Shown piece by piece: positions 39,245 to 53,203 of a DNA stretch of 64,000 bases. The stretch covers positions 1,426,001 through 1,490,000 of the forward strand of contig NZ_CP101823.1 of NCBI RefSeq assembly GCF_024498175.1, written 5' to 3'. Position 1 is the stretch's first letter. The number at the start of each line of letters is the position of its first letter. The stretch comes from Haloplanus salinarum. GTDB lineage: Archaea; Halobacteriota; Halobacteria; Halobacteriales; Haloferacaceae. A model generated the notes under the pieces. It was not told where the DNA came from, did not search any database, and saw only the letters and a program-made list of their open reading frames with translations. The position numbers were made by a program, and so were the translations under genes.

Positions 39245-41692
39245 TCATTGTCGTTGTAATCGGTCGAATAGTCGTTCGAAAAGTGTTTGCTGTGCGTTTC
39301 GCAGATGGTAGGAGAAGGTTGATTGGGTCAGTGAGAGCGCGTTGGCAATCTCGGTTGCCGTACTTCGTCGCGGTGACTGAAAATACCCACCGTACAGTGC
39401 AGCTCGCAGGACCTGTTGTTGACGGTCCGTGAGTTCGGTTTCGAAGATTTCTCCCAGCATCCGACCGACTGTGTGTGTATTCGACTCCACAGCGGGAGTG
39501 TATTCACGTTTCGAGACCAACGTCGTGTCTGGAAACGACTCCTGGACACGCGTCACGAGCGAACCAATATCGTTGCCAAGTGGTACTTCGCAGATGACTT
39601 CGGCCCGGCCGTCAGTTACCGTATCCGCCGTGACGACTGCCCCCTCTGTAACGAGTGTCTGTGCCAAGGATTGCCGGCACAGTCCGATTTCGACCTCTCC
39701 ACCTGGCGGGTCCTCAGTGTGACGGATCTGTCGCACCTGGGCGGCCCAATCTCCGTTCTCCGCGATATCCTCCAGAGCATCCAACGAAGCACCCTGAACG
39801 GACACATAGTGGACGAGCATCTCGTCCGAGGCCGGAATCGTGTCCCTGAGCTCGATCGTACAACCCAGCTGTTCGGAAGCGGAGACGAAAAACGACCCCG
39901 AGTCAGTGCCCTCGAACGTGAGCTCGGCCACGTTGTCGGCATGGAGAATGCGCTCTGTCGCAAGTAAGTGAAGAACTTGCCCAATCCGCTCGCCGAGCGT
40001 CGTCAGGAGTGTCTGCTCGCGGCTCCCGAACGCATCTCCACGGTCCGTATACAAGACGAGCAGCCCGTAGACGCGGCTTCTGTGCGCGAGCGGAACGATA
40101 GCGCCACCCTGGAACCCTTGTTCCAGTGTGTATGCTCGCCATCGCTCGAACTGCGAGTCCGACTGATTCCTCCGAACTGCCTGTATCTCGGCCGTTTCAA
40201 CAGCGACCGCTGCCGGAGCGACCTCAGTCCGCGATTGTATCGGACCAGTTACGGACTCGTTGGCCGCGACAGCCCCCGACCCCTCCTCGAGATCCGATTC
40301 GGTCAGTTCCGTTTCCGGGGTGTACTCGTTAATCCGTGCGTACTGGTATTCGAGCGTGTCCGTCAGTAACTCACAGATGGGTCGTTCGATCTCCTCGTCA
40401 GCAGTTGCGCTATTGAGTAGTTCGCTGACCGGCTGGAACGTCTCGGTGAGTTGTTCGAGCCGTTTGTGGACGGTCACGTCTTCCAGTGCAACGATGATTT
40501 GCTCGATCGATCCGTCTTCACCCACGACAGGAGCAACGTTGCTCGATAGCCACCGTTCGGAGCCGTCCGGGAGTGTGATCCCGTGGGTGAACCCCTGGAT
40601 AGTCTCGCCGGTTCTGCGGACGCACATGACGGGATGGTTTTCGCGTGGAATCGGATTACCCGCTTCGTCCCAGATATCCCAGTCCGGGTGATCGTACGCC
40701 ACGCCGTCCATCCTGCTTTCGGACAGGCCAAGCAACGCTTCTGCACGGGGGTTTGCGCGGGTAATCTCTCCCTCGGGGGTCAGGAGGACGATGCCGATGG
40801 GCACCGTTTCCAAGACGCGATCCAGTTTTCGTTCGGCAACCTTCGAGTCGGTGATTTCGGTGAAGACGATGATGACGCCATCGTCGCTTGGGTGGACGCT
40901 AGCTTCGACCCACTGTTCCTTCTGGGTGTTGTATCGCTCGAAGGATGTCGATGACCCCGTGTCGAGAGCCGTCCGGATTTTCTCTTCGGCAATGGTGTCA
41001 GCCGCTTCGGGAAAGACCTCCCAGACGGACTCACCACGCAGTTCCTCGTTGTCTCGTCCGAGAAGCTGCTCGGCCTGCTGATTCACGTATCTATACGCGA
41101 GGTCGTCATCAAGCACGGCAACGCCGTCCGACACGCGCTTCAGACTGTCTATCTCCCATCGTTCGATGGCGGATGTAATGAGTGAGATGGTCGTCTCGGC
41201 TAGTTCTCGTTCGCTTGCGAGCCACGCTCGCTGGCCCGTGCCCGGTCGCCGGTCCGTGGAGACGACTGTCATCGAGACGGCTGTTCCGATGCGTGTGTGA
41301 GCCTTCGCTGTCAGGGTGTCTAGTGTCGGGCGGAACCCGCCGGTTTCGAACACGTCGTCTCCCACCCGAATCTTGGCCTCGATCGCTTGCGAGTCCCGGA
41401 ACCACTGTGGCAGTTCCGAGACGTACGTCCGAACACTGTCGTCAACATCGTCAGGCAGGCCGACGAAGAGTTCACTTGCCCGTTCGAGCGCGTTGAGCGC
41501 ACTCGTCCACTCTTGGAGTGTTCCCTCGGCCCCCTCTCCGTACACGGGGTTCTCGTCCGCCCCGTCGTCTTGGTCCGGCGTGTGCGCGTCTGACTCGGAA
41601 CCGTCGCGGGACGCACCGGGATCGGCTTCGACGGAGTCGGCGCGACTCGACCGGCTCCCTCCATCGTTCTCCTGCCGATCCTGTTCGTCCAT
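39245..41692 (-). CDS. Bat-type sensor regulator: PAS-PAS-GAF-Bat-HTH_10
   Basis: A protein of 815 residues. After a Ser/Asp-rich leader and an uncharacterised N-terminal region (about 60-195), there are PAS domains at about 195-310 and 315-430, a GAF domain (about 435-600), a Bat domain (about 605-750), and a C-terminal HTH_10 (about 752-808, LTDRQQQVLRAALYGGYFQSPRRSTATEIANALSLTQSTFSYHLRNAQ). It is related to bacterio-opsin activator Bat, which responds to light and oxygen. As first gene beside a HalOD1, transducer and LOV-kinase group it may be their transcriptional output. Confidence 0.92.
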   Translation of the reverse strand: MDEQDRQENDGGSRSSRADSVEADPGASRDGSESDAHTPDQDDGADENPVYGEGAEGTLQEWTSALNALERASELFVGLPDDVDDSVRTYVSELPQWFRDSQAIEAKIRVGDDVFETGGFRPTLDTLTAKAHTRIGTAVSMTVVSTDRRPGTGQRAWLASERELAETTISLITSAIERWEIDSLKRVSDGVAVLDDDLAYRYVNQQAEQLLGRDNEELRGESVWEVFPEAADTIAEEKIRTALDTGSSTSFERYNTQKEQWVEASVHPSDDGVIIVFTEITDSKVAERKLDRVLETVPIGIVLLTPEGEITRANPRAEALLGLSESRMDGVAYDHPDWDIWDEAGNPIPRENHPVMCVRRTGETIQGFTHGITLPDGSERWLSSNVAPVVGEDGSIEQIIVALEDVTVHKRLEQLTETFQPVSELLNSATADEEIERPICELLTDTLEYQYARINEYTPETELTESDLEEGSGAVAANESVTGPIQSRTEVAPAAVAVETAEIQAVRRNQSDSQFERWRAYTLEQGFQGGAIVPLAHRSRVYGLLVLYTDRGDAFGSREQTLLTTLGERIGQVLHLLATERILHADNVAELTFEGTDSGSFFVSASEQLGCTIELRDTIPASDEMLVHYVSVQGASLDALEDIAENGDWAAQVRQIRHTEDPPGGEVEIGLCRQSLAQTLVTEGAVVTADTVTDGRAEVICEVPLGNDIGSLVTRVQESFPDTTLVSKREYTPAVESNTHTVGRMLGEIFETELTDRQQQVLRAALYGGYFQSPRRSTATEIANALSLTQSTFSYHLRNAQQTLFERLFDRLQRQ

Positions 41693-42038: not shown

Positions 42039-42410
42039 TTATTCCGTATTCCCCGCACGCGGAAGGCCCACTTCGATCACGCCGCCGCTCGAGAGCTGGA
42101 TCGTGAGCCCCTGATAAGTGAACTCGACGAGCCGTTCGTTACGGGATGGTCCGGACGGACGGTGTCTCACGATTCGGTCGAGAGCATCCGGGTCGACGAC
42201 GTGGTGCAGTGGTCGGAGATCAGTCGCCGACTGTCCGGTTATTTTCGCAACCACGAAAATAACCGTTACACTCGGTGACACGTCGCCACCGTCGAACTCC
42301 GCAACGTATGTTTCCTCACTGGCGTCGAACGTCAGCGACCGAACGGGGGGGTCACCGTCGATTTCTTCCTGTCGGAAACGATTTCCGTCGTGCTGGGTCG
42401 AATCGGGCAT
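42039..42410 (-). CDS. HalOD1 output-domain protein
   Basis: A protein of 123 residues. After a polar leader, the HalOD1 domain (about 45-120) is seen in VSPSVTVIFVVAKITGQSATDLRPLHHVVDPDALDRIV and RLVEFTYQGLTIQLSSGGVIEV. HalOD1 is a stand-alone or fused output domain of haloarchaeal two-component systems. It diverges from the transducer gene and carries the GTTATCTAGA motif ahead of its TATA box. Confidence 0.85.
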   Translation of the reverse strand: MPDSTQHDGNRFRQEEIDGDPPVRSLTFDASEETYVAEFDGGDVSPSVTVIFVVAKITGQSATDLRPLHHVVDPDALDRIVRHRPSGPSRNERLVEFTYQGLTIQLSSGGVIEVGLPRAGNTE

Positions 42411-42446
42411 AGACGTACAAACACTGACGGAGAAGATAAGTCACCC

Positions 42447-42457
42447 ATCTAGATAAC
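42447..42457 (-). promoter_or_regulatory. GTTATCTAGA site upstream of HalOD1
   Basis: On the minus strand CCCGTTATCTAGAT (42447-42460) lies some 37-47 bases before the HalOD1 ATG and about 8 bases before the TATA-like CTTATCTTC. The same motif precedes the transducer and the KaiC-like gene at comparable distances. Confidence 0.6.
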
Positions 42458-42559
42458 GGGAGACGCCCGGAATCATACCCCGGATGGCGTCCCTCAGGAA
42501 CGGTTCGAACAGCGAAGCGAGCGAGACGGCCGCCGGTTCTCAGCTGCGATACTCATACT

Positions 42560-42569
42560 GTTATCTAGA
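42560..42569 (+). promoter_or_regulatory. GTTATCTAGA site upstream of transducer gene
   Basis: GTTATCTAGA at 42560-42569 stands 38-47 bases before ATG 42607. A TATA-like CAGTTATTGGG follows at 42575-42585. Confidence 0.6.
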
Positions 42570-42606
42570 ATGGTCAGTTATTGGGTTTGCCACGGGAGAA
42601 TAGTCC

Positions 42607-44829
42607 ATGTTAGAACAGGTGAAACTCGATCGGTTCGACCTGCGGCCGAAACTCATCCTAGCCTTCGTGCTCGTGGCGTTGCTGGTGGGTGCGACGGGAC
42701 TGATGGGATACCAAGCGGTCGGCGCCGTCGACGGCGAGGCCCACGTCATCTCCGAGGACGCCGACAAGATCGACGCGTCGATGGAGATGTTGGTCGCCGT
42801 CGAGGAACAGCAGGTGGCAGTCCAAGCAGCCCTGCTCGGTGAGGACGATGCCAGAGCCGACTTCGAGAAAGCCAATTCCCACTTCGAAGAGTGGGCAGGG
42901 CGGATGGAGGGTACCGACCTGAGCGAGGAAGAACAGCAAGCCTTCGCCGATTTGCGGTCCAGACACCGGGAGTACACGGCCGTCGCTCAGGAGGTGTTCG
43001 ACGCGGCGGAGGCCGGTGAGACGGCGCGTGCCAGACGAGGATTGGCGGAACTGGACCCGATACTGACCGACATGCGCGAGGACGCACACACGCTCGAAGA
43101 ACGCGCCGTCGAGGACAAGGAAACAGCGGTCGCGTCGGCAGACAGCACCACGTCGACGGTTCAGTGGTTGCTTCTCGGACTGACTGCTGGGTCGTTCGTC
43201 TTGGCTATCGCTCTCGGGCTGTTCGTCGCGGGACGGATCATCCCGCCGATCACCAAGTTGGAGGAAACGGCACAGGCCGTCAGTGCCGGCGACCTCGACA
43301 ACGACCTCGAGGCCCACGTCGAAGACGACGAACTCGGCCGGATGATCGAGGCGTTCACCGAGATGCAGACGAACCTCCGGGGCGTATTCTCGCAGATCGG
43401 AACCGCCAGCCGTGGCTTGCGACAGGGCGACCTCGGGTGGGAGTTCGAGTCCAGCTATCCCGGTCGGTACGGCGAAACCGTCGCCGATCTCGAAGCGGGT
43501 GCCGACGAACTCGCGGAGAGTTTCGACGAGATTCGAGGTGTGAGTGACGACCTCCAGCAGGGAGTTCTGGACGGAGACGTCGATGCGAACCGCCCCGGCC
43601 AGTACGGCGAAGTGCTCACCGATCTCGCGACCGGGACGACCCAGTTATCGGAGAGCTTCGCACAGATATCGACCGTGAGTCGGGGTCTAAAGGACGGGGA
43701 ACTCGATCAGGTCGTCGACACGGACTACCCGGGAACGTTCGGATCGACACTGAGTGACCTCGAAAACGGAATCGAGCAGCTGGATACGAGCGTCGCACGT
43801 GTCCAGTCCATCGCGGACGACGTCGCAACGTCGAGTCAGAGCGTGGCGAGCAGTTCGGAAGAGATCGAACAGGCCAGCAAGCAGGTCGCGGAGTCCGTCG
43901 AAGAGATCTCGCGCGGTGCGGACACACAGAGCGAGAACCTCGACGAGGTGGCCGGCGAGATGAACGACATGTCGGCGACCGTCGAGGAAATCGCCTCCTC
44001 GGCAGAGGAGGTGGCTACAACTGCCAGTACGGCCGTCGAGCGCGGCGAGACTGGCCGACAGTACGCCTCGGAAGCGACCGATGAGATCCAGTCGATCGAA
44101 ACACGGGCCGACGAAGCGGCCACACAGGTCGAGGCGCTCGACGAGAAGATGGACCGGATCGGCGAGGTCGTCGAGATGATCGCCGACATCGCCGAACAGA
44201 CCAACATGCTGGCATTGAACGCCTCGATCGAGGCCGCGAAGGCTGGAGAAGCGGGCGAGGGGTTCGGTGTCGTGGCAGATGAAATAAAGTCCCTGGCAGG
44301 GGAGGCAGCCGAGGCGACCACCGACATCGAACAGCGCATCGAAGAGGTCCAGGCGACGACGGACGAGACCGTTGAGGGCATACAACAGATGAGCGATCGC
44401 GTCGAACGCGGCTCCGACACGATCGAAGACGCCATCGAGATGTTCGACGAAATCGCCAATACCGTCCAAGAGGCCGAAAGCGGCATCCGGGAAATCAGCG
44501 ACGCCACCGACGACCAGGCGGCCTCGTCGGAAGAGGTGGTGTCGATGGTCGACCAAGTCTCCAGCGTCAGCCAGCAGACGGCGGCCGAGGCGAGCAACGT
44601 CTCCGCCGCGACCGAAGAGCAGACCGCTTCACTGTCCGAGGCCTCGGAGAACGTGCAACAACTGTCCGCGCTCGCTGAGGAACTACACGACCAAGTGTCG
44701 GATTTCGACACCGGATCAGGTGTCGGTGCAGGAGCCAAGGCGACAGCGGGATCGGCGGCCGCGGCCGACGGCGGACACCACATCTCCGAGACCGATGCTC
44801 GAACGCCGGAGTACGATGGAGAAACGTAA
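42607..44829 (+). CDS. Membrane methyl-accepting transducer (Htr)
   Basis: A protein of 740 residues. Membrane helix 1 is at about 16-38 and helix 2 at 186-209, bounding an extracellular four-helix-bundle-like sensor of about 145 residues. A HAMP domain (210-262), further HAMP-like repeats to about 400, and the MCP signalling domain follow, with the hairpin tip [35 protein letters not shown] at about 529-565. It reports to CheA/CheW for taxis. The outer sensor sees an extracellular cue; a rhodopsin partner is not encoded nearby. Confidence 0.93.
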
Positions 44830-44957
44830 GCCGATGAGGGCACGTCACGTTCCCGAGTCCACGCTCGTGGGAGGGCGGTACGCTATCGGTATGGGAACTG
44901 TCTGCGACCTTGTCGACTGTTCGGAGGAACGGATCCGGAACCGACCTCGGCAGAAGC

Positions 44958-46763
44958 ATGAGTGAGGCGAAGGCCTTGATCGAGACTGAAGAGTTGATAC
45001 AGGTTCTCCACGTGGACGATCAAGCCGATTTCGCCGATCTCACTGCGACGTTCCTCGAGCGAGCGGACGACCGGTTCACCGTCGAGACGGCGAGTAGCGC
45101 CGACGGTGGATTGGAGAGGATCGACGAGCGTCGACCCGACTGCATCGTCTCGGATTACAATATGCCCGGCATGAACGGCCTCGAGTTCTTCGAAGCTGTC
45201 CGAGAGCGGTATCCCGACCTTCCGTTCATCCTGTTTACTGGCAAGGGCAGCGAGACCATCGCCAGCGAAGCACTCTCTGCTGGCGTTACCGACTACCTCC
45301 AGAAGGGGTCCGCCACCGACCGGTACGACCTCTTGGCCAACCGGATCCGGAACGCCGTCCGGACACGACGCGAGGCACGGCGGGCCGACAGACAGCAACA
45401 ACTGATGCGACTGACGGAGTTCGTCGGCGACACCGGTGGGTGGGAACTGGATCGAGGGAGTGATACTGTCCTGCTGACGGCCGGCGCCCAGCGAGCGGTC
45501 GGCCGCCCTGGCCAAGCCGAAATCCCTCTGGAGGAGGCGATAGCACTGTTCCACCCGGACGACCGCGAAGACATTCGGCACACACTCACCAGGGCGTTCG
45601 AGACGGGCGAGGAACTGCACAACACGTGGCGACTTCAGTCAGGGGACGGCGACGAGCGTCTGATAGAAATGACGATCACTCCCGTCGTAGAATCCGGTGG
45701 GAGGGTAACGAAACTCCGTGGAGCGGGTCACGATATCACCGACCGCAAGGAGCGTCGGCAGGAACTCGAAAAGTACGAGACGATCATCGAGGCGTTGACC
45801 GACGCCGTGTACGTGCTCAACGAGGAGGGGCGATTCACATTTGTCAGCGACGAACTCGTCGAGTTGGTCGGCTACGACCGGGAAACCATTCTCGGAAGCA
45901 CGCCGTCACTCATCAAGGACGAGGATGCCGTCGAACGGGCAAAACACCACTTGGGTCGGTTGCTGTCGAGTGACGGCCCGCAGACGGTACAATTCGAAGT
46001 GACGATCCAGCCATGTGACGGCGACCCGATCGTCTGTGAGGATCACATAGGTGTCCTTCCCTACGAAGGTGACGAGTTCGACGGGTCAGTCGGGACACTC
46101 CGAGATATCACAGAGCGCAAAGAGCGTGCACGGAAACTTGAACGGCAAAACGCCCGTCTCGAAGCGTTCGCAAGCATCGTCAGCCACGATCTCCGAAATC
46201 CGCTCATGACTGCCCAGGGCCGCCTCGAACTGGCACAGGCCGATTGTGACTCCCCTCACCTAGATGAAGTGGGTGACGCAGTCGATCGCTGTCAGGCGCT
46301 CATCGATGATCTATTGGCGCTTGCTCGGAGTGGGAACTCACTCGGAACGACGGAACCGGTCACCCTGTCCGAACTGGCTGAGGAGTGTTGGCGGACGACG
46401 CCGAGTGCGGACGCAACGCTCGCTGTCGAAACCGATCTGACGATATCGGCTGATCGGAGCCGACTTCAGCAGTTGTTCGAGAATCTCTTTAGGAACGCCG
46501 TCAACCACGGAGGCAGTGAGGTAACGGTGACCGTCGGAAAGATAGCTGACGGGTTCTACGTCGCGGACGATGGAGCGGGAAGTCCCGACGAAGAACGCGA
46601 CGATATTTTCGAGGCTGGCTACTCGACCGCTGACGATGGCACTGGATTCGGCCTCGCAATCGTCAAGGAGATCGTGGTGGCACACGGCTGGGAAATCCGC
46701 GTGACCGACAGCGAGACCGGCGGCACCCGCTTCGAGATTATCGGCATCAAAACCGCACATTGA
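44958..46763 (+). CDS. Hybrid REC-PAS-PAS-histidine kinase
   Basis: A protein of 601 residues. The receiver (1-125) has Asp20/Asp21, phospho-acceptor Asp66 (VSDYNMPGMNG), Thr94 and Lys116. PAS-type domains lie at about 150-265 and 270-390. HisKA has His410 in SIVSHDLRNPL, and the HATPase has NLFRNAVNHG, DDGAGSP and GTGFGLAIVKEI. The receiver at the N-terminus suggests it is itself phosphorylated by another kinase. ATG 44958 begins the receiver; earlier in-frame starts lack similarity. Confidence 0.92.
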   Translation: MSEAKALIETEELIQVLHVDDQADFADLTATFLERADDRFTVETASSADGGLERIDERRPDCIVSDYNMPGMNGLEFFEAVRERYPDLPFILFTGKGSETIASEALSAGVTDYLQKGSATDRYDLLANRIRNAVRTRREARRADRQQQLMRLTEFVGDTGGWELDRGSDTVLLTAGAQRAVGRPGQAEIPLEEAIALFHPDDREDIRHTLTRAFETGEELHNTWRLQSGDGDERLIEMTITPVVESGGRVTKLRGAGHDITDRKERRQELEKYETIIEALTDAVYVLNEEGRFTFVSDELVELVGYDRETILGSTPSLIKDEDAVERAKHHLGRLLSSDGPQTVQFEVTIQPCDGDPIVCEDHIGVLPYEGDEFDGSVGTLRDITERKERARKLERQNARLEAFASIVSHDLRNPLMTAQGRLELAQADCDSPHLDEVGDAVDRCQALIDDLLALARSGNSLGTTEPVTLSELAEECWRTTPSADATLAVETDLTISADRSRLQQLFENLFRNAVNHGGSEVTVTVGKIADGFYVADDGAGSPDEERDDIFEAGYSTADDGTGFGLAIVKEIVVAHGWEIRVTDSETGGTRFEIIGIKTAH

Positions 46764-46797
46764 GCGAACCCATTTTTTAGCTTCTCCGCCGAATCCC

Positions 46798-46807
46798 GTT
46801 ATCTAGA
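46798..46807 (+). promoter_or_regulatory. GTTATCTAGA site upstream of kaiC-like operon
   Basis: CCCGTTATCTAGA (46795-46807) is followed by a TATA-like GTCTTATCTCC at about 46812-46822. The kaiC-like ATG is at 46855, or transcription could begin near 46844. The motif and spacing to TATA match the HalOD1 and transducer promoters. Confidence 0.6.
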
Positions 46808-46854
46808 CTGTCGTCTTATCTCCCTCGGGGCCGGTTGACAAGACATGATACACG

Positions 46855-48372
46855 ATGTCTGATCACTCTCGCGATCCGGCGACCGAGGAAATCGATCTGG
46901 TAGCGTCGGGTATCCCCGAACTGGACGAACTGCTCAACGGAGGGCTTGTTCGGGGCCGTACGTACCTCGTCCAGGGCGCATCGGGAACGGGGAAGTCGCT
47001 GCTCGGTCAGCACTTCCTGCGAGCGGGACTCGATGCCGACGAGACAGTCGTCTACATCCACGGCGAGGAGTCGAGAGACGACATTCTCGTCAACGCAGCA
47101 CGGCTCGACGTCGACATTCGGGACGCCGAGTTTTTAGACATCGGGCCCGGGACGGACTTTTTCGCCGAGGACAAGTCGTACAACCTGGTCGAAGCGAGCG
47201 AAGTCGAATCCGAACAGTTCACACAGGATATCAAACACGTAATCGAGGAGGTGGATCCGGCCCGGATTCTCATCGACCCGATCACCCAACTCCAGTACGT
47301 GGAACGGGACGAATACCAGTACCGGAAGCGGTTGCAGTCGCTCATCCGGTTCCTTCGGGACCGACAGGTCACGACAGTCGCGACGCGAACGCTCGACAGG
47401 GAGCGCACTCGCGAGACCAGACACGACGATTTCGAATCGTTGAGCGACGGCGTCGTCAACCTGTCTCTCGACGAGCACGAGCGCCGGATCGCCGTGCCGA
47501 AACACCGTGGTCTCGGCCAGAGCGACGGGACCCACGGACTGGAAATCCGCGAGCATGGGATCGAAGTCTATCCACAGACCATCCCGAAACACGAGAACCG
47601 AACGTTCGACCCGGAACTGATCCCGACCGGACACGAAGCTCTCGACGGACTCCTCGGTGGCGGGATCGAACGCGGGACCGTCTCGTTTATCAGCGGGCCG
47701 ACCGGCATCGGCAAATCGACCACCGGCGCACAGATACTTTCGGGCATCGTCGAAGACGGTGGGACAGCGCTCGGATACCTCTTCGAGGAGTCGATCGACC
47801 AGTTCGTCCATCGCTCGGAAACACTCGGACTCCCGATCTCGGAGATGCGGGCGCAGGGATCACTGGCGCTGACAGAGACCGAACCGCTCGTGCGTTCGGC
47901 CGAGGAGTTCGATCGGCACGTCCTCGACCAGGTCGACGAGCACGCGCCGGACGCAGTGTTCGTCGACGGGCTCTCGGGCTACAAGATCTCGCTCCAGGGC
48001 GACGACCAGCGACTTGTTCGCCGGTTACACGGCCTCACCAGGGTTCTCAAGAATCGCGGTATTGCAGTCATTATCACGGACGAGGCGGACCGCCTCACCG
48101 GCATCCCGGAAGCCACGAGCACGAACACCAGTTACATCGCGGACAACATCGTGTTTCTCACCTATGTGGAAGTCGACGGCGAACTGGACCGAGCGATCGG
48201 AGTCGTGAAAAAGCGACTCGGGGATTTCGACAGCCGGTTCCACCGGTTCGCGATCGAGTCCGGCGAGGGGCTGGTTATCGAAGGACCATTCGATACCGTT
48301 CGGGGGATCATGCAGGGTAGTTCAACGCATCGCGTTCCAGATGAGTCCCACCAGACAACGGACCAATCATGA
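46855..48372 (+). CDS. Double-domain KaiC/RadA-like ATPase
   Basis: A protein of 505 residues with two KaiC-type RecA domains. Walker A motifs are GASGTGKS at 41-48 and GPTGIGKS at 281-288; each domain has the EES motif after the second strand (YIHGEES, YLFEES). Archaeal KaiC-like proteins are usually signalling ATPases rather than a proven clock, since KaiA and KaiB are absent. Its stop overlaps the LOV-kinase start by 4 bases, so the two are translated together and probably act together. Confidence 0.92.
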   Translation: MSDHSRDPATEEIDLVASGIPELDELLNGGLVRGRTYLVQGASGTGKSLLGQHFLRAGLDADETVVYIHGEESRDDILVNAARLDVDIRDAEFLDIGPGTDFFAEDKSYNLVEASEVESEQFTQDIKHVIEEVDPARILIDPITQLQYVERDEYQYRKRLQSLIRFLRDRQVTTVATRTLDRERTRETRHDDFESLSDGVVNLSLDEHERRIAVPKHRGLGQSDGTHGLEIREHGIEVYPQTIPKHENRTFDPELIPTGHEALDGLLGGGIERGTVSFISGPTGIGKSTTGAQILSGIVEDGGTALGYLFEESIDQFVHRSETLGLPISEMRAQGSLALTETEPLVRSAEEFDRHVLDQVDEHAPDAVFVDGLSGYKISLQGDDQRLVRRLHGLTRVLKNRGIAVIITDEADRLTGIPEATSTNTSYIADNIVFLTYVEVDGELDRAIGVVKKRLGDFDSRFHRFAIESGEGLVIEGPFDTVRGIMQGSSTHRVPDESHQTTDQS

Positions 48373-50591
48373 CCGCCCAGTCGAGTCGCGAAGTGAGTGA
48401 GCGACACACCATACAACTCCTGATACACGGAGATAACGACCGGGAAGCGCTCGAAGAATTTCTTGACGAACGGTACGACGTCGTCGCCGATGACACCCTC
48501 CAGCCCGTCGATTGTTATGTCGTTGGTGAACAGATGGTACCGACGTACCGCGACGCGTTGCGAGAGCACAAAAAAGAGGCCCACCCGACCTTCACGCCCG
48601 TCCTGTTGATTCAACAGGAAGGGTCGAGGGGAACGGTCCCGTTGCCGTCCGAGCAGAACGGCAACGGGCCACCGCTCGTTGACGAAGTGGTGTCAGCACC
48701 TGTCGACCGGACGACCCTGTTTCGTCGTGTGGGGAATTTGTTGGCGAGGCGTGAGCAGTCGGTGGAGTTGTCCACGCGCTACGAGGACGTGCAGATTCGA
48801 TTTCAGCGGCTGTTCGATTCGACGAACGACGCAATCTTCGTTGTTGCTCCATCTGGCGACGAGATCACCGAGTGCAACCCCGCGGCGTGTGACCTCGTGG
48901 GATACTCACGTGACGAATTGCTCTCTATCTCGCCGACCCAGACAATCCACGCCGACGATCGCGAGCGGTTCCGGTCTTTCCTCCAGCAGGTACAGGAGGC
49001 GGGGCAGGGATCGACCGACGACCTCACGTGTCAGACGAAGGAAGGAGAAACGCGACAGTTGGAGGTGTCGGCTGCGACGCTTGAGGATTCCGACCAGTCA
49101 CCGATAATCCTCTCTGCACGCGACGTGACAGACCGGAAAACGTACGCCCGCGAGCTCGAACTGAAATCCCAGGCGATGGACAAAGCGCCCGTCGGGATCA
49201 CCATCACCGATCCCAACCGAGATGATAACCCGATGATCTACGTAAACGAGGGATTCGAAGCGCTGACTGGGTATTCTGAGTCGGAATCGCTCGGCCGCAA
49301 CTGTCGGTTTCTCCAGGGTGAGGCCACTCGGGAGGAACCAGTCGCCGAAATGCGGAAGGCAGTTGAGAAGGACGAGCCGGTATCCGTGGAACTCCGGAAC
49401 TACCGGAAGGACGGCAGTCAGTTCTGGAACCGCGTCAGTATCGCGCCGGTGAGAGATGACGCCGGAACCGTCGAGAATTACGTCGGGTTCCAGGAGAACG
49501 TTTCCGAGCGCAAAGAGCGCGAAATGGACTTACAGCTGTTCAAAAAAGCCGTCGAGAGCGCAGGACATGCGGTCTTCATCACTGACAGGGAGGGCACTAT
49601 CGAGTACGTGAATCCGAAATTCGAAGCCCGAACCGGCTATACTCGTGAGGAAGCTGTCGGTAAAACCCCTCGCATCATCAAGTCGGGCAAACAGGACGCG
49701 GCGTTCTACGACCGGATGTGGCAGACGATCCTTTCGGGCGAGCAGTGGAATGCAAATCTCATCAATCAGCGCAAAAACGGGGAGCTGTACCACGTCAACC
49801 AGACGATCTCGCCCATCGCGAACGGCGACGGAGAGATTACGCACTTCGTCACGATCGAGTCCGACGTGACGAATCGTCGGTTGCGCAAACAGCAACTCGA
49901 CGTTCTCAATCGCGTCTTGCGCCACAATCTCAGGAACGGAACGAATGTTATTCAGGGCCGGGCAGAACTACTCCGTAAATCGCTGGGCGATGACGAACAT
50001 CGGGCGGACGTCCGGGCGATCGAAGAACGGGCGGACGCTCTGGCGACGCTGGGTGACAAAGCCGGAACTGTGCGCTCGCTGTTCGAAAACGAAGTGTCCG
50101 CTGAGACCGCTACCAACGTGACGGAGTTAGTTAGCGATGTCGTCACCACCGTTTCTGAAGAGTATTCGACCGCTTCATTCGATGTCGATGATTCTGACCC
50201 ACTCTACGTTCGGGCGGATAGCCAGTTGAAGATGGCACTTAAGGAACTACTGGACAACGCCGTCGTCCACAACGACCAACCCAAACCCGAGGTGACGGTC
50301 ACCACCAGACCGTCCAGAGAAAAGCAGTCTGAACAGTGGATCGACATCGAAATTGTGGATAACGGACCGGGCATCCCGGACCAAGAACTGGAGACGATCA
50401 AAGAGGGCGAGGAAACGCCGCTCCAGCACGGGACCGGACTCGGGCTCTGGATCGTCTACTGGACTGTCTCGCTGTACGGTGGCGAAGTCACATTCGTGGA
50501 TAACTCACCGCGTGGAACAGGCGTCGTATTGAACCTTCCTCGGATGTCCGCAGACTCATCCGTTCGGGGAACGCCCGTCGAACACCACTGA
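48369..50591 (+). CDS. LOV-domain sensor histidine kinase
   Basis: A protein of 740 residues. An N-terminal receiver-like region without phospho-acceptor motif (about 10-125) precedes PAS1 (140-255), a LOV-type PAS2 (265-380) and PAS3 (390-500). PAS2 has the flavin-binding signature GRNCRFLQ with reactive Cys312, and the strand RKDGSQFWNRVSIAPV, diagnostic for LOV. HisKA has His519 in VLRHNLRNG; the HATPase has KELLDNAVVHND, DNGPGIPD and GTGLGLWIVYW. It likely detects blue light and signals with the KaiC-like ATPase whose stop overlaps its start. Confidence 0.93.
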   Translation: MTAQSSREVSERHTIQLLIHGDNDREALEEFLDERYDVVADDTLQPVDCYVVGEQMVPTYRDALREHKKEAHPTFTPVLLIQQEGSRGTVPLPSEQNGNGPPLVDEVVSAPVDRTTLFRRVGNLLARREQSVELSTRYEDVQIRFQRLFDSTNDAIFVVAPSGDEITECNPAACDLVGYSRDELLSISPTQTIHADDRERFRSFLQQVQEAGQGSTDDLTCQTKEGETRQLEVSAATLEDSDQSPIILSARDVTDRKTYARELELKSQAMDKAPVGITITDPNRDDNPMIYVNEGFEALTGYSESESLGRNCRFLQGEATREEPVAEMRKAVEKDEPVSVELRNYRKDGSQFWNRVSIAPVRDDAGTVENYVGFQENVSERKEREMDLQLFKKAVESAGHAVFITDREGTIEYVNPKFEARTGYTREEAVGKTPRIIKSGKQDAAFYDRMWQTILSGEQWNANLINQRKNGELYHVNQTISPIANGDGEITHFVTIESDVTNRRLRKQQLDVLNRVLRHNLRNGTNVIQGRAELLRKSLGDDEHRADVRAIEERADALATLGDKAGTVRSLFENEVSAETATNVTELVSDVVTTVSEEYSTASFDVDDSDPLYVRADSQLKMALKELLDNAVVHNDQPKPEVTVTTRPSREKQSEQWIDIEIVDNGPGIPDQELETIKEGEETPLQHGTGLGLWIVYWTVSLYGGEVTFVDNSPRGTGVVLNLPRMSADSSVRGTPVEHH

Positions 50592-50594
50592 CCA

Positions 50595-51704
50595 ATGGAA
50601 GACACTGCGACTTCGGACACACGGAGCGAGAATCAGGCGGATCGGTATCGGATGCTCGTCGAAGAGTCGAACGACCTCGCCACGATCATCGACACTGACG
50701 GAACGATGACATACGTGAGCCCCGCGGTCACCCGAGTGCTCGGCTACGATTCCGAGGAGTTAGTCGGGAACTCTGGCTACGAATACGTCCATCCCGACGA
50801 CCGGGAGAAAAACGCCGAGGCGGTCGAAGCTGTTCTTGAGACTCCGGACGAACCCCAGACCGTCGAAGTCCGATTCAAACACGCCGACGGGTCGTGGTGC
50901 TGGATCGAAGCCACGATGCGGAACCGGCTCGAAGACGATGTCATCGACGGTATTCTACTCAACAGCCGGGAGATTACCGAGCGGAAAGAACAGGAACGCG
51001 AACTCCGCGAACTGGCTGGAGAGTACGAGGCCCTCCTCAACAATACAGAGGACGCAATCTTCTTCGTCGATGTCGACGCTTCAGACGGCGACGTTACGTT
51101 CGAATTCGACCGGATCAGCCCGGCATACGAGCGACAGACCGGCCTTACGACCGAAGAGGTCCGGGGAGAAACGCCTCGTGATGTATTCGGTGAGCAAGCG
51201 GGAGCAGAACTCGAAGCGAACTATCACCGGTGTGCCAAGGCTCGTGAGCCGATCTCGTATCAGGAAGAGCTAGAAATCGATGAGGAGGCACACATCTGGC
51301 AGACGAATCTCGCGCCAGTACTCACTGACGGCGACGTAACCCGTCTCGTGGGAATCACCCGGAACGTCACCGACCGCGTCGAACGGGAACGACAGCTTCG
51401 TCGGCAAAAGGAGCGGCTCGACGAGTTTGCGAGCGTCGTCTCCCACGACCTGCGCAATCCGCTCAACGTCGCACAGGGCCGCGCAACGATCCTCGATGAA
51501 CAGACAGAGAGCGAACATCTCGATCCACTCCTGCGGGCACTCGACCGGATGGAAGCTATCGTCGAGGACACGCTGACACTCGCTCGTCAAGGTGAGACGA
51601 TAGACGAAACGGAGTCGGTCAGTCTGACCGATCTCGTCGGGAAGTGCTGGGGAACGGTAGACACAGACGCGGCGACCCTCGAATTGACATCCTCCTCCGC
51701 CTGA
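50595..51704 (+). CDS. PAS-PAS histidine kinase, truncated before the ATPase domain
   Basis: PAS domains at about 15-130 and 140-260 and a HisKA helix pair with His284 (SVVSHDLRNPL) are intact. The frame then enters the end of a tnpB element at about 51687 and stops after adding TSSSA. The HATPase domain is absent on both sides of the element, so the 3' end is lost, not merely displaced. It cannot autophosphorylate by itself; it could still dimerise or accept phosphate from another kinase. It starts 3 bases after the LOV-kinase stop. Confidence 0.85.
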   Translation: MEDTATSDTRSENQADRYRMLVEESNDLATIIDTDGTMTYVSPAVTRVLGYDSEELVGNSGYEYVHPDDREKNAEAVEAVLETPDEPQTVEVRFKHADGSWCWIEATMRNRLEDDVIDGILLNSREITERKEQERELRELAGEYEALLNNTEDAIFFVDVDASDGDVTFEFDRISPAYERQTGLTTEEVRGETPRDVFGEQAGAELEANYHRCAKAREPISYQEELEIDEEAHIWQTNLAPVLTDGDVTRLVGITRNVTDRVERERQLRRQKERLDEFASVVSHDLRNPLNVAQGRATILDEQTESEHLDPLLRALDRMEAIVEDTLTLARQGETIDETESVSLTDLVGKCWGTVDTDAATLELTSSSA

Positions 51705-53203
51705 AGGCGGAGGAATCCCACGGCACCGCGCCGCTGGATTGGGATATTACGGTTTGCAGTCTACCACTTGTTCCTGCGGTTGGAATCCGCTGGACAAGTC
51801 ATGAAGGTAGACTCCGGGCTGTGCCAACCAGCCGGTACTCCTATCCCCACCCAACACGGGTGCGGACTCGGAGTTACTTTGATTGATGTCGAGACGGATG
51901 TTCTCCGCCCCGTTCACGTCGGCGTTGAACGCCGCATCACACTCTTCACACACGTACAGGCCGCGTTCGATACGCTGGCTATCGTCTTCTCTACCGCAGA
52001 CGCAACACGTCTTGCTCGTGTCGCGCTCTGAGACCTCTACGACTTCGATTCCCTCGACTTTCGTCTTGTATTCGAGGATGTTCGAGAACCGGTCGAACGC
52101 CCACCCGTGTAGGTCGAGGTTGCCGTGCCGACCCCAGTTCTTCGACTCGCCGTTCTCATCCTCACGAACACCAGCGAGTTTCCCAACGTTGATGCGGCCA
52201 ACTTCCTGCTCGACACACCGTTCTACGATGTGCTTCGCTAAGGAGTGGAAGAAGTGGCTTCGGCGCTCCGACCACTTCGCGTGGAGACGAGTGGCTCGTT
52301 CGCCCCCCGAATCGTCGCACTTGGCGATTTCCTTTGGGAAGTAGTACCCGTCCTGTTTCAGGCGATTGCCGGGGTACAGGTCGGCTTCCTCCGTACTGTA
52401 CGCGACCGCCGCGAAGTTACAGATGCCGAGGTCAATACCCGCTGTTTCGTTGCCGGGTGCGTTGGGCGTCTCGATTTCGTCTTTGCAGACGAAATGCAGT
52501 TCCCAGCGTCCTTTCGCCTTGTCGTAGACGGCACGGACTTGTTGTAGGTTTTCGACGGTGACACCGGGGCGTGTCTCGTATTCGACAAGGATGTATTCCC
52601 ACGCCTTGGGGTGTTCCTTGTGATTCGCGCCTTTGGACAGACGAACACGATTGTTTTTCGAGTCGTGTTTGATGCCGTTTTGCTTCCACGTCACCGTTGA
52701 CCGAGGGTGTTCTTCGTGGACGCGATGGCCTTCTGAGTCGTAGTAGGTTTTCTTCCGGTAGCCGGGCGGATTCGCTCGACTGTCGGACTTCCTCTTGCCA
52801 TACCACGAGTTGAAGGCTTCAGCGAGTTCCTCCAGAACGCGCTGACTGGACTGCGAGTGCAATCCCTTGTATTTTGAGTGACCTTTCAACTCGTTTTTGA
52901 GGTCGCCGTGGTCGGGGATTTCGCCCGTTTTCTCCCACACTTTGCGGGAGTGGTAGTTTGCAACGTTCCAGAGTTTGCTGGCCGACCACCCGTGCCGGTC
53001 GAGCGGTTCCTCTACCTGGCCGTGGTTGAGGATTTTCGCTCGGTAGGTGCGGTGGACTTCTAGCATTCTGAACGTCTGTATAACCACTTATACTCGATTC
53101 TCTTGTAAAGGTTCGGTTTGAGAATGGTTGAATATCCGGCCCTGTCATCGACGGTGGGTCGTGGAGGAGTTGTCGGATTCATCCCGCGCCTAAAGGCGCG
53201 GGT
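51687..53203 (-). mobile_element. Second tnpB-only IS200/IS605-type element
   Basis: Bounded by the hairpins CCTCCGCC-TGAA-GGCGGAGG (51694-51713) and CCCGCGCC-TAAA-GGCGCGGG (53183-53202). The guide-proximal right end faces left on the minus strand into the kinase gene. No Y1 transposase gene. The element is distinct from the one at 2699-4268, both in TnpB sequence and in hairpins. Its outer flank at 53203 is not kinase sequence, which implies a later deletion or rearrangement. Confidence 0.8.
51747..53066 (-). CDS. tnpB: TnpB RNA-guided nuclease-like protein
   Basis: A protein of 439 residues. RuvC-I is TAGIDLGICNFAAVAY, the RuvC-II region reads GRINVGKLAGVRED without Glu at the usual EDL site, the zinc ribbon is CCVCGRED...CEECD, and RuvC-III is AFNADVNGAENI with Asp. 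ATG 53066 (MLEVHRTYRAKI) gives the normal N-terminus; an upstream in-frame start at 53087 adds seven residues. Both hairpin ends of the element flank it. Confidence 0.88.
   Translation of the reverse strand: MLEVHRTYRAKILNHGQVEEPLDRHGWSASKLWNVANYHSRKVWEKTGEIPDHGDLKNELKGHSKYKGLHSQSSQRVLEELAEAFNSWYGKRKSDSRANPPGYRKKTYYDSEGHRVHEEHPRSTVTWKQNGIKHDSKNNRVRLSKGANHKEHPKAWEYILVEYETRPGVTVENLQQVRAVYDKAKGRWELHFVCKDEIETPNAPGNETAGIDLGICNFAAVAYSTEEADLYPGNRLKQDGYYFPKEIAKCDDSGGERATRLHAKWSERRSHFFHSLAKHIVERCVEQEVGRINVGKLAGVREDENGESKNWGRHGNLDLHGWAFDRFSNILEYKTKVEGIEVVEVSERDTSKTCCVCGREDDSQRIERGLYVCEECDAAFNADVNGAENIRLDINQSNSESAPVLGGDRSTGWLAQPGVYLHDLSSGFQPQEQVVDCKP

Follow-up and report, generated by a model that had tools for sequence, protein, structure and literature searches.

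Three copies of the decamer GTTATCTAGA stand upstream of signalling genes in the 64-kb stretch of DNA analysed here (from here: the window), each of them next to a TATA-like box. This arrangement raises the question whether the decamer is a regulatory site that joins these genes in one regulon and, if so, which protein recognizes it.

Genes and promoters of the locus

The proteins of the cluster were assigned by their Pfam domains. The minus strand carries the gene of a HalOD1 protein of 123 aa (42039..42410) and, 346 bases behind it, that of a Bat-type regulator of 815 aa with the architecture PAS-PAS-GAF-BAT-HTH_10 (39245..41692). In the latter protein, the BAT (PF15915, 7.5e-31) and HTH_10 (PF04967, 4.2e-16) domains follow PAS_4 and GAF_2 domains, as expected for a regulator of the Bat/HTH_10 family; its gene may have a promoter of its own. 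On the plus strand, a methyl-accepting transducer (Htr/MCP type; 4HB_MCP, HAMP and MCPsignal domains) at 42607..44829 is followed by a receiver-PAS-PAS-histidine kinase (44961..46763), a KaiC-family double ATPase (46855..48372), a PAS-LOV-PAS histidine kinase with the LOV motif GRNCRFLQ (48369..50591) and a PAS-HisKA kinase (50595..51704). The original prediction had spoken of KaiC-LOV. KaiC and the LOV protein are encoded by two separate genes, 46855-48372 and 48369-50591, which overlap by 4 bases and hence probably belong to one operon.

Several features of these genes differ from their relatives. A CheW gene lies between transducer and kinase in two Haloarcula plasmids (L170, L171) and is missing here (44830-44960). 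The last kinase of the KaiC operon lacks the ATPase domain and measures 369 aa, compared with about 473 aa in Haloarcula relatives. A TnpB (OrfB_IS605) gene is located 42 bases behind it on the opposite strand (51747-53087); the insertion probably cut the kinase gene. The start of kaiC is 10 bases farther from the decamer than the starts at the other two promoters, and a five-codon open reading frame, MIHDV (46845-46862), starts where transcription of kaiC is expected to begin and extends over the kaiC start. As a control element this reading frame was rejected, because several relatives lack its ATG and others have it.

The decamer of the HalOD1 promoter is located at 42448..42457 on the minus strand, where it is preceded by TCCC, and the corresponding TTAT at 42436..42439, with its first T 29 bases before the ATG. 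In the transducer promoter, decamer and TTAT occupy positions 42560..42569 and 42578..42581 on the plus strand, and in the kaiC promoter positions 46798..46807, preceded by ATCCC, and 46816..46819, also on the plus strand. Exactly 8 bases separate decamer and TTAT in each case, and the start codon follows the first base of the decamer after 47 (HalOD1), 47 (transducer) and 57 bases (kaiC, ATG). The original prediction, which had given a distance of 5-10 bases to a TATA-like box and of roughly 40-55 bases to the start, is borne out by these values. All three copies are exact, as it had claimed, and two of them, at HalOD1 and kaiC, share the CCC extension; only its left end for the minus-strand copy, 42447, was off by one.

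The haloarchaeal TATA motif has been described as TTWT (PMC4983044). The TTAT of the three promoters fits this motif and has the right position for the TATA box of a leaderless start. The proposed haloarchaeal BRE motif CGAAA (PMC4983044) occurs in none of the three 8-base spacers (N8).

A genome scan returned exactly three exact copies of GTTATCTAGA in 3,450,905 bases, all of them intergenic and at the studied locus; the many unrelated matches in coding DNA that had been named as counter-evidence do not occur. The reversed control pattern has one copy in the same complete genome. A Markov model fitted to the window predicts about 0.5-1.3 decamer copies per genome and 0.01-0.02 per 64 kb, and within the window there is no further match with up to one mismatch. 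Given the observed counts versus controls and Markov expectation, we rejected a chance origin of the three copies. A wider regulon did not emerge: with up to 3 mismatches allowed over decamer and TTAT, the other matches in the genome have at least 2 mismatches and their totals do not exceed those of the reversed control. The decamer includes the rare tetramer CTAG, of which the 64-kb window has 31 copies. As some haloarchaea are known to methylate CTAG, the decamer site might be affected by methylation.

An additional block, GATACTCATAC (42548..42558, plus strand), is positioned directly upstream of the transducer decamer and is kept in transducer promoters only. The same restriction to transducer promoters holds for the GATACTCAT block together with TTCTCA further upstream (42536-42558). 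The GATACTCAT block is situated between the two divergent genes, and a second factor or a second half-site at GATACTCAT/TTCTCA is possible.

Conservation and distribution of the element

Alignment of 37 sites yielded the consensus TnCnGTTATCTAGA-N8-TTAT. Decamer positions 4, 6, 7, 8 and 10 as well as a T at -4 are invariant; information is concentrated in T(-4), C(-2), the decamer and TTAT, and N8 and most other positions contribute little. We compared promoter classes, between which no shared ancestry is expected outside functional bases. Identity reached 94% in the decamer and 90% in TTAT, and it was 24%, the chance level, in N8. A conserved decamer, a freely diverging N8 and a fixed spacing constitute the pattern of a protein-binding site near a core promoter.

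The exact module GTTATCTAGA-N8-TTAT was found in 4 of 170 genomes of the family, all four among the 12 Haloplanus genomes and none among the 158 outside this genus. In one of them (G071), all three sites recur in an identical arrangement. Another (G072) has one site set on the largest contig and two on a plasmid contig, with one mismatch in some copies. This plasmid contig (C3, 200,002 bases) holds two copies of the cluster (L039, L040), which lie 97,452 bases apart and do not differ in their sites; the record may represent a plasmid dimer or a duplication made in assembly. A search at the level of the order added four genomes with the exact module, which belong to another family and have the same gene cluster, except for G375, in which a single site lies between a diverged Bat-transducer pair. 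Among named genomes, site loci were identified in Halorientalis, Halovenus, Salinadaptatus, a Haloarculaceae archaeon and on Haloarcula plasmids. Two of these plasmids were used as a test of the prediction, and in both the site is present at all three expected promoters; over decamer and TTAT, none of these sites deviates at more than one position. Hence, the module precedes corresponding genes in Haloplanus, Haloarcula, Halorientalis, Halovenus and Salinadaptatus, and several haloarchaeal families have kept the element at these three promoters.

The cluster is mobile, as it resides on plasmids in several species and its kaiC is 97% identical between families. Such mobility would suit the idea that the copies are functionless remains of promoter duplication or of the end of a mobile element. 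Copied promoters should then also resemble each other in N8 and the farther flanks, where identity between promoter classes is 24-29%, as against 94% in the decamer, and the constant distance to TTAT and to the start at every locus argues for function. We give this explanation practically no credence.

In most relatives, the divergent gene encodes a protoglobin-MCP of the HemAT type and is followed on the same strand by a DICT-domain gene and the Bat-type gene. As judged from these gene orders, the predicted ancestral cluster comprises HemAT-DICT-Bat on one strand and, divergently, MCP-(CheW)-kinase and KaiC-LOV kinase-kinase on the other. The first codons of the Haloplanus HalOD1 gene resemble the HemAT start (G071, MSDSPQHDRDSFGLGG, versus e.g. 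MSDSPQYGRDDFGRGG). In the simplest reading, HalOD1 captured the promoter and the first ~15 codons of the ancestral HemAT gene, with loss of HemAT and DICT. A search of the stretch from HalOD1 to the regulator for remnants of these two genes yielded no convincing match. The joining of HalOD1 to the HemAT promoter would mean that the control element was kept and the controlled gene was swapped.

Co-inheritance of element and Bat-type regulator

No gene other than the Bat-type gene is found at all site loci; for each of transducer, kaiC, HemAT and HalOD1 there are loci that lack it. Among the 12 genomes of the genus, a full-length ortholog of the regulator (62-85% identical) exists in exactly the 4 genomes that bear the module, and the other 8 are without it. 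In the sample of the order, the exact module was detected in 6 of 392 genomes and the Bat ortholog in all 6, while a seventh genome with a Bat ortholog has a two-mismatch variant, ACTATCTAGA-N8-TTAT, before its transducer. The scan of named genomes yielded the element at all 9 close Bat loci (49-76% identity); two Bat loci at 27% identity are without it. Moreover, the extended module was found in none of 391 haloarchaeal genomes outside those with the Bat ortholog, and neither was the reversed control.

As regulator gene and site mostly lie close together in a transferred cluster, part of their co-occurrence reflects linkage, and by itself it is no proof. In G071 the regulator is 19 kb away from the site, which eases this concern only slightly. 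Two natural exceptions are more informative. The kaiC ortholog of G076 (88%) retains the TATA-region TTCGACTTATT and has GGAATCCGTA where the decamer should be, in a genome without a Bat ortholog. Transducer relatives without this Bat, namely in G074, G076 and the second G072 copy, are likewise not preceded by the element. The second exception is G075. Its regulator homolog, 50% identical over the C-terminal half, has the recognition helix TQTTVSQHL versus TQSTFSYHL in the regulator studied here, and its transducer promoter reads GATATCCAGC-N8-TTAT, a changed decamer in an otherwise aligned promoter. This is a single case of co-variation between helix and site, and no site was found at the G075 kaiC. 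In the Haloplanus genome of the window, the helix TQSTFSYHLRNAQ is confined to a single HTH_10 domain out of 26 above the cut-off. Judged by comparison of sequences, the decamer loss in G076 and the helix/site co-variation in G075 go beyond linkage and support the nearby Bat-type protein as the probable regulator, as had been proposed originally.

The fixed spacing beside the BRE/TATA region could also indicate that another factor reads the element, such as a TFB/TBP paralog, through an extended BRE, or an unlinked regulator. A general or global factor should have sites elsewhere, but the genome has only these three. Furthermore, the presence of the element tracks the Bat ortholog, and no DNA-binding domain was recognized in the remaining scanned proteins of the conserved cluster. 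We consider such a factor improbable.

Predicted regulation and known systems

From the above, the Bat-type protein encoded at 39245-41692 very probably uses the decamer as its upstream activating sequence and would control the three promoters. The PAS/GAF domains of the regulator would sense a signal and its C-terminal HTH_10 domain would bind the decamer, at about -47 to -38 relative to a start that is mostly leaderless, with TATCTAGA rather than N8 as the predicted binding determinant within the site. The bound regulator would help TFB/TBP to assemble on the adjoining weak TATA box, in the manner of Bat-type and GvpE activators at their upstream elements (PMC1447603, PMC8241225). The gene of HalOD1 and the two operons, transducer-kinase and KaiC-LOV kinase, would thereby be switched jointly. 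Light and oxygen are the suggested inputs, in view of the LOV kinase, the PAS/GAF domains and the globin transducer of the ancestral cluster. In the ancestral layout, HemAT-DICT-Bat would depend on this element as well, which would place the regulator under its own control.

We infer activation rather than repression from the position of the site alone, an activator-type position beside the TFB/TBP site that had been proposed before and that the comparative evidence supports. Should the Bat-type protein instead repress, or switch between repression and activation, the same co-inheritance evidence would fit, and position alone does not determine the sign. Haloarchaeal repressors usually act at the TATA box or the start, whereas the site stops 8 bases short of TTAT and overlaps neither. 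In addition, Bat and DmsR, the known relatives, act as activators (PMC1447603, PMC3184054), and GvpE works from a site upstream of BRE and TATA (PMC8241225). Repression is thus unlikely, though less so than the involvement of another factor, and we retain the assignment of the decamer as an activating site.

Haloarchaea possess dozens of Bat-like HTH_10 regulators, with 26 domains over the cut-off in this genome. In the literature searched, the bop UAS was the only experimentally characterised site of such a regulator, and a search for the decamer returned only unrelated papers. Phylogenetic footprinting in several genera here provides a precise predicted regulator-site pair, of which both a loss and a variant exist in nature. 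The predicted regulon brings together an oxygen-sensing transducer, a LOV kinase and a KaiC protein, the common role of which becomes testable. A bolder reading is a self-contained, plasmid-mobile light/oxygen cluster with a private promoter code, feedback on its own gene and a readable HTH_10 recognition code; this is conceivable, but we rate it as somewhat doubtful. If true, a unique recognition helix would be matched by a site that exists nowhere else in the host genome, and the joint change of site and helix would mean that the HTH_10 family, with its 26 copies here, has a readable code for DNA recognition.

Among known systems, GvpE is a haloarchaeal activator from a protein family other than that of the Bat-type regulators. 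It acts directly upstream of BRE and TATA (PMC8241225); its 20-nt UAS in gas-vesicle promoters is similar in position to the element described here and differs in length. DmsR, a positive regulator of the dms operon, has a C-terminal HTH similar to that of Bat (PMC1447603); the likeness is one of protein, and its target is anaerobic respiration, unlike here. The closest parallel is the bop regulon of Halobacterium salinarum, in which a PAS-GAF-BAT-HTH_10 regulator is likewise encoded beside its targets. The bop UAS, described by saturation mutagenesis (PMC1447603, PMC1502140), is a short upstream element common to a few co-regulated promoters, as is the decamer. The known inputs of Bat are light and oxygen (PMC3184054), to which correspond here the LOV kinase in the cluster and, ancestrally, a globin sensor. 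The two systems differ in their targets, which are retinal-protein genes in the bop regulon and transducers, KaiC and kinases here, and in their extent, since a Bat UAS was suggested at up to 108 genes (PMC1502140), whereas the site here is confined to three promoters. By analogy, the predicted regulatory logic of the locus is that of the known bop regulon, i.e. Bat plus UAS.
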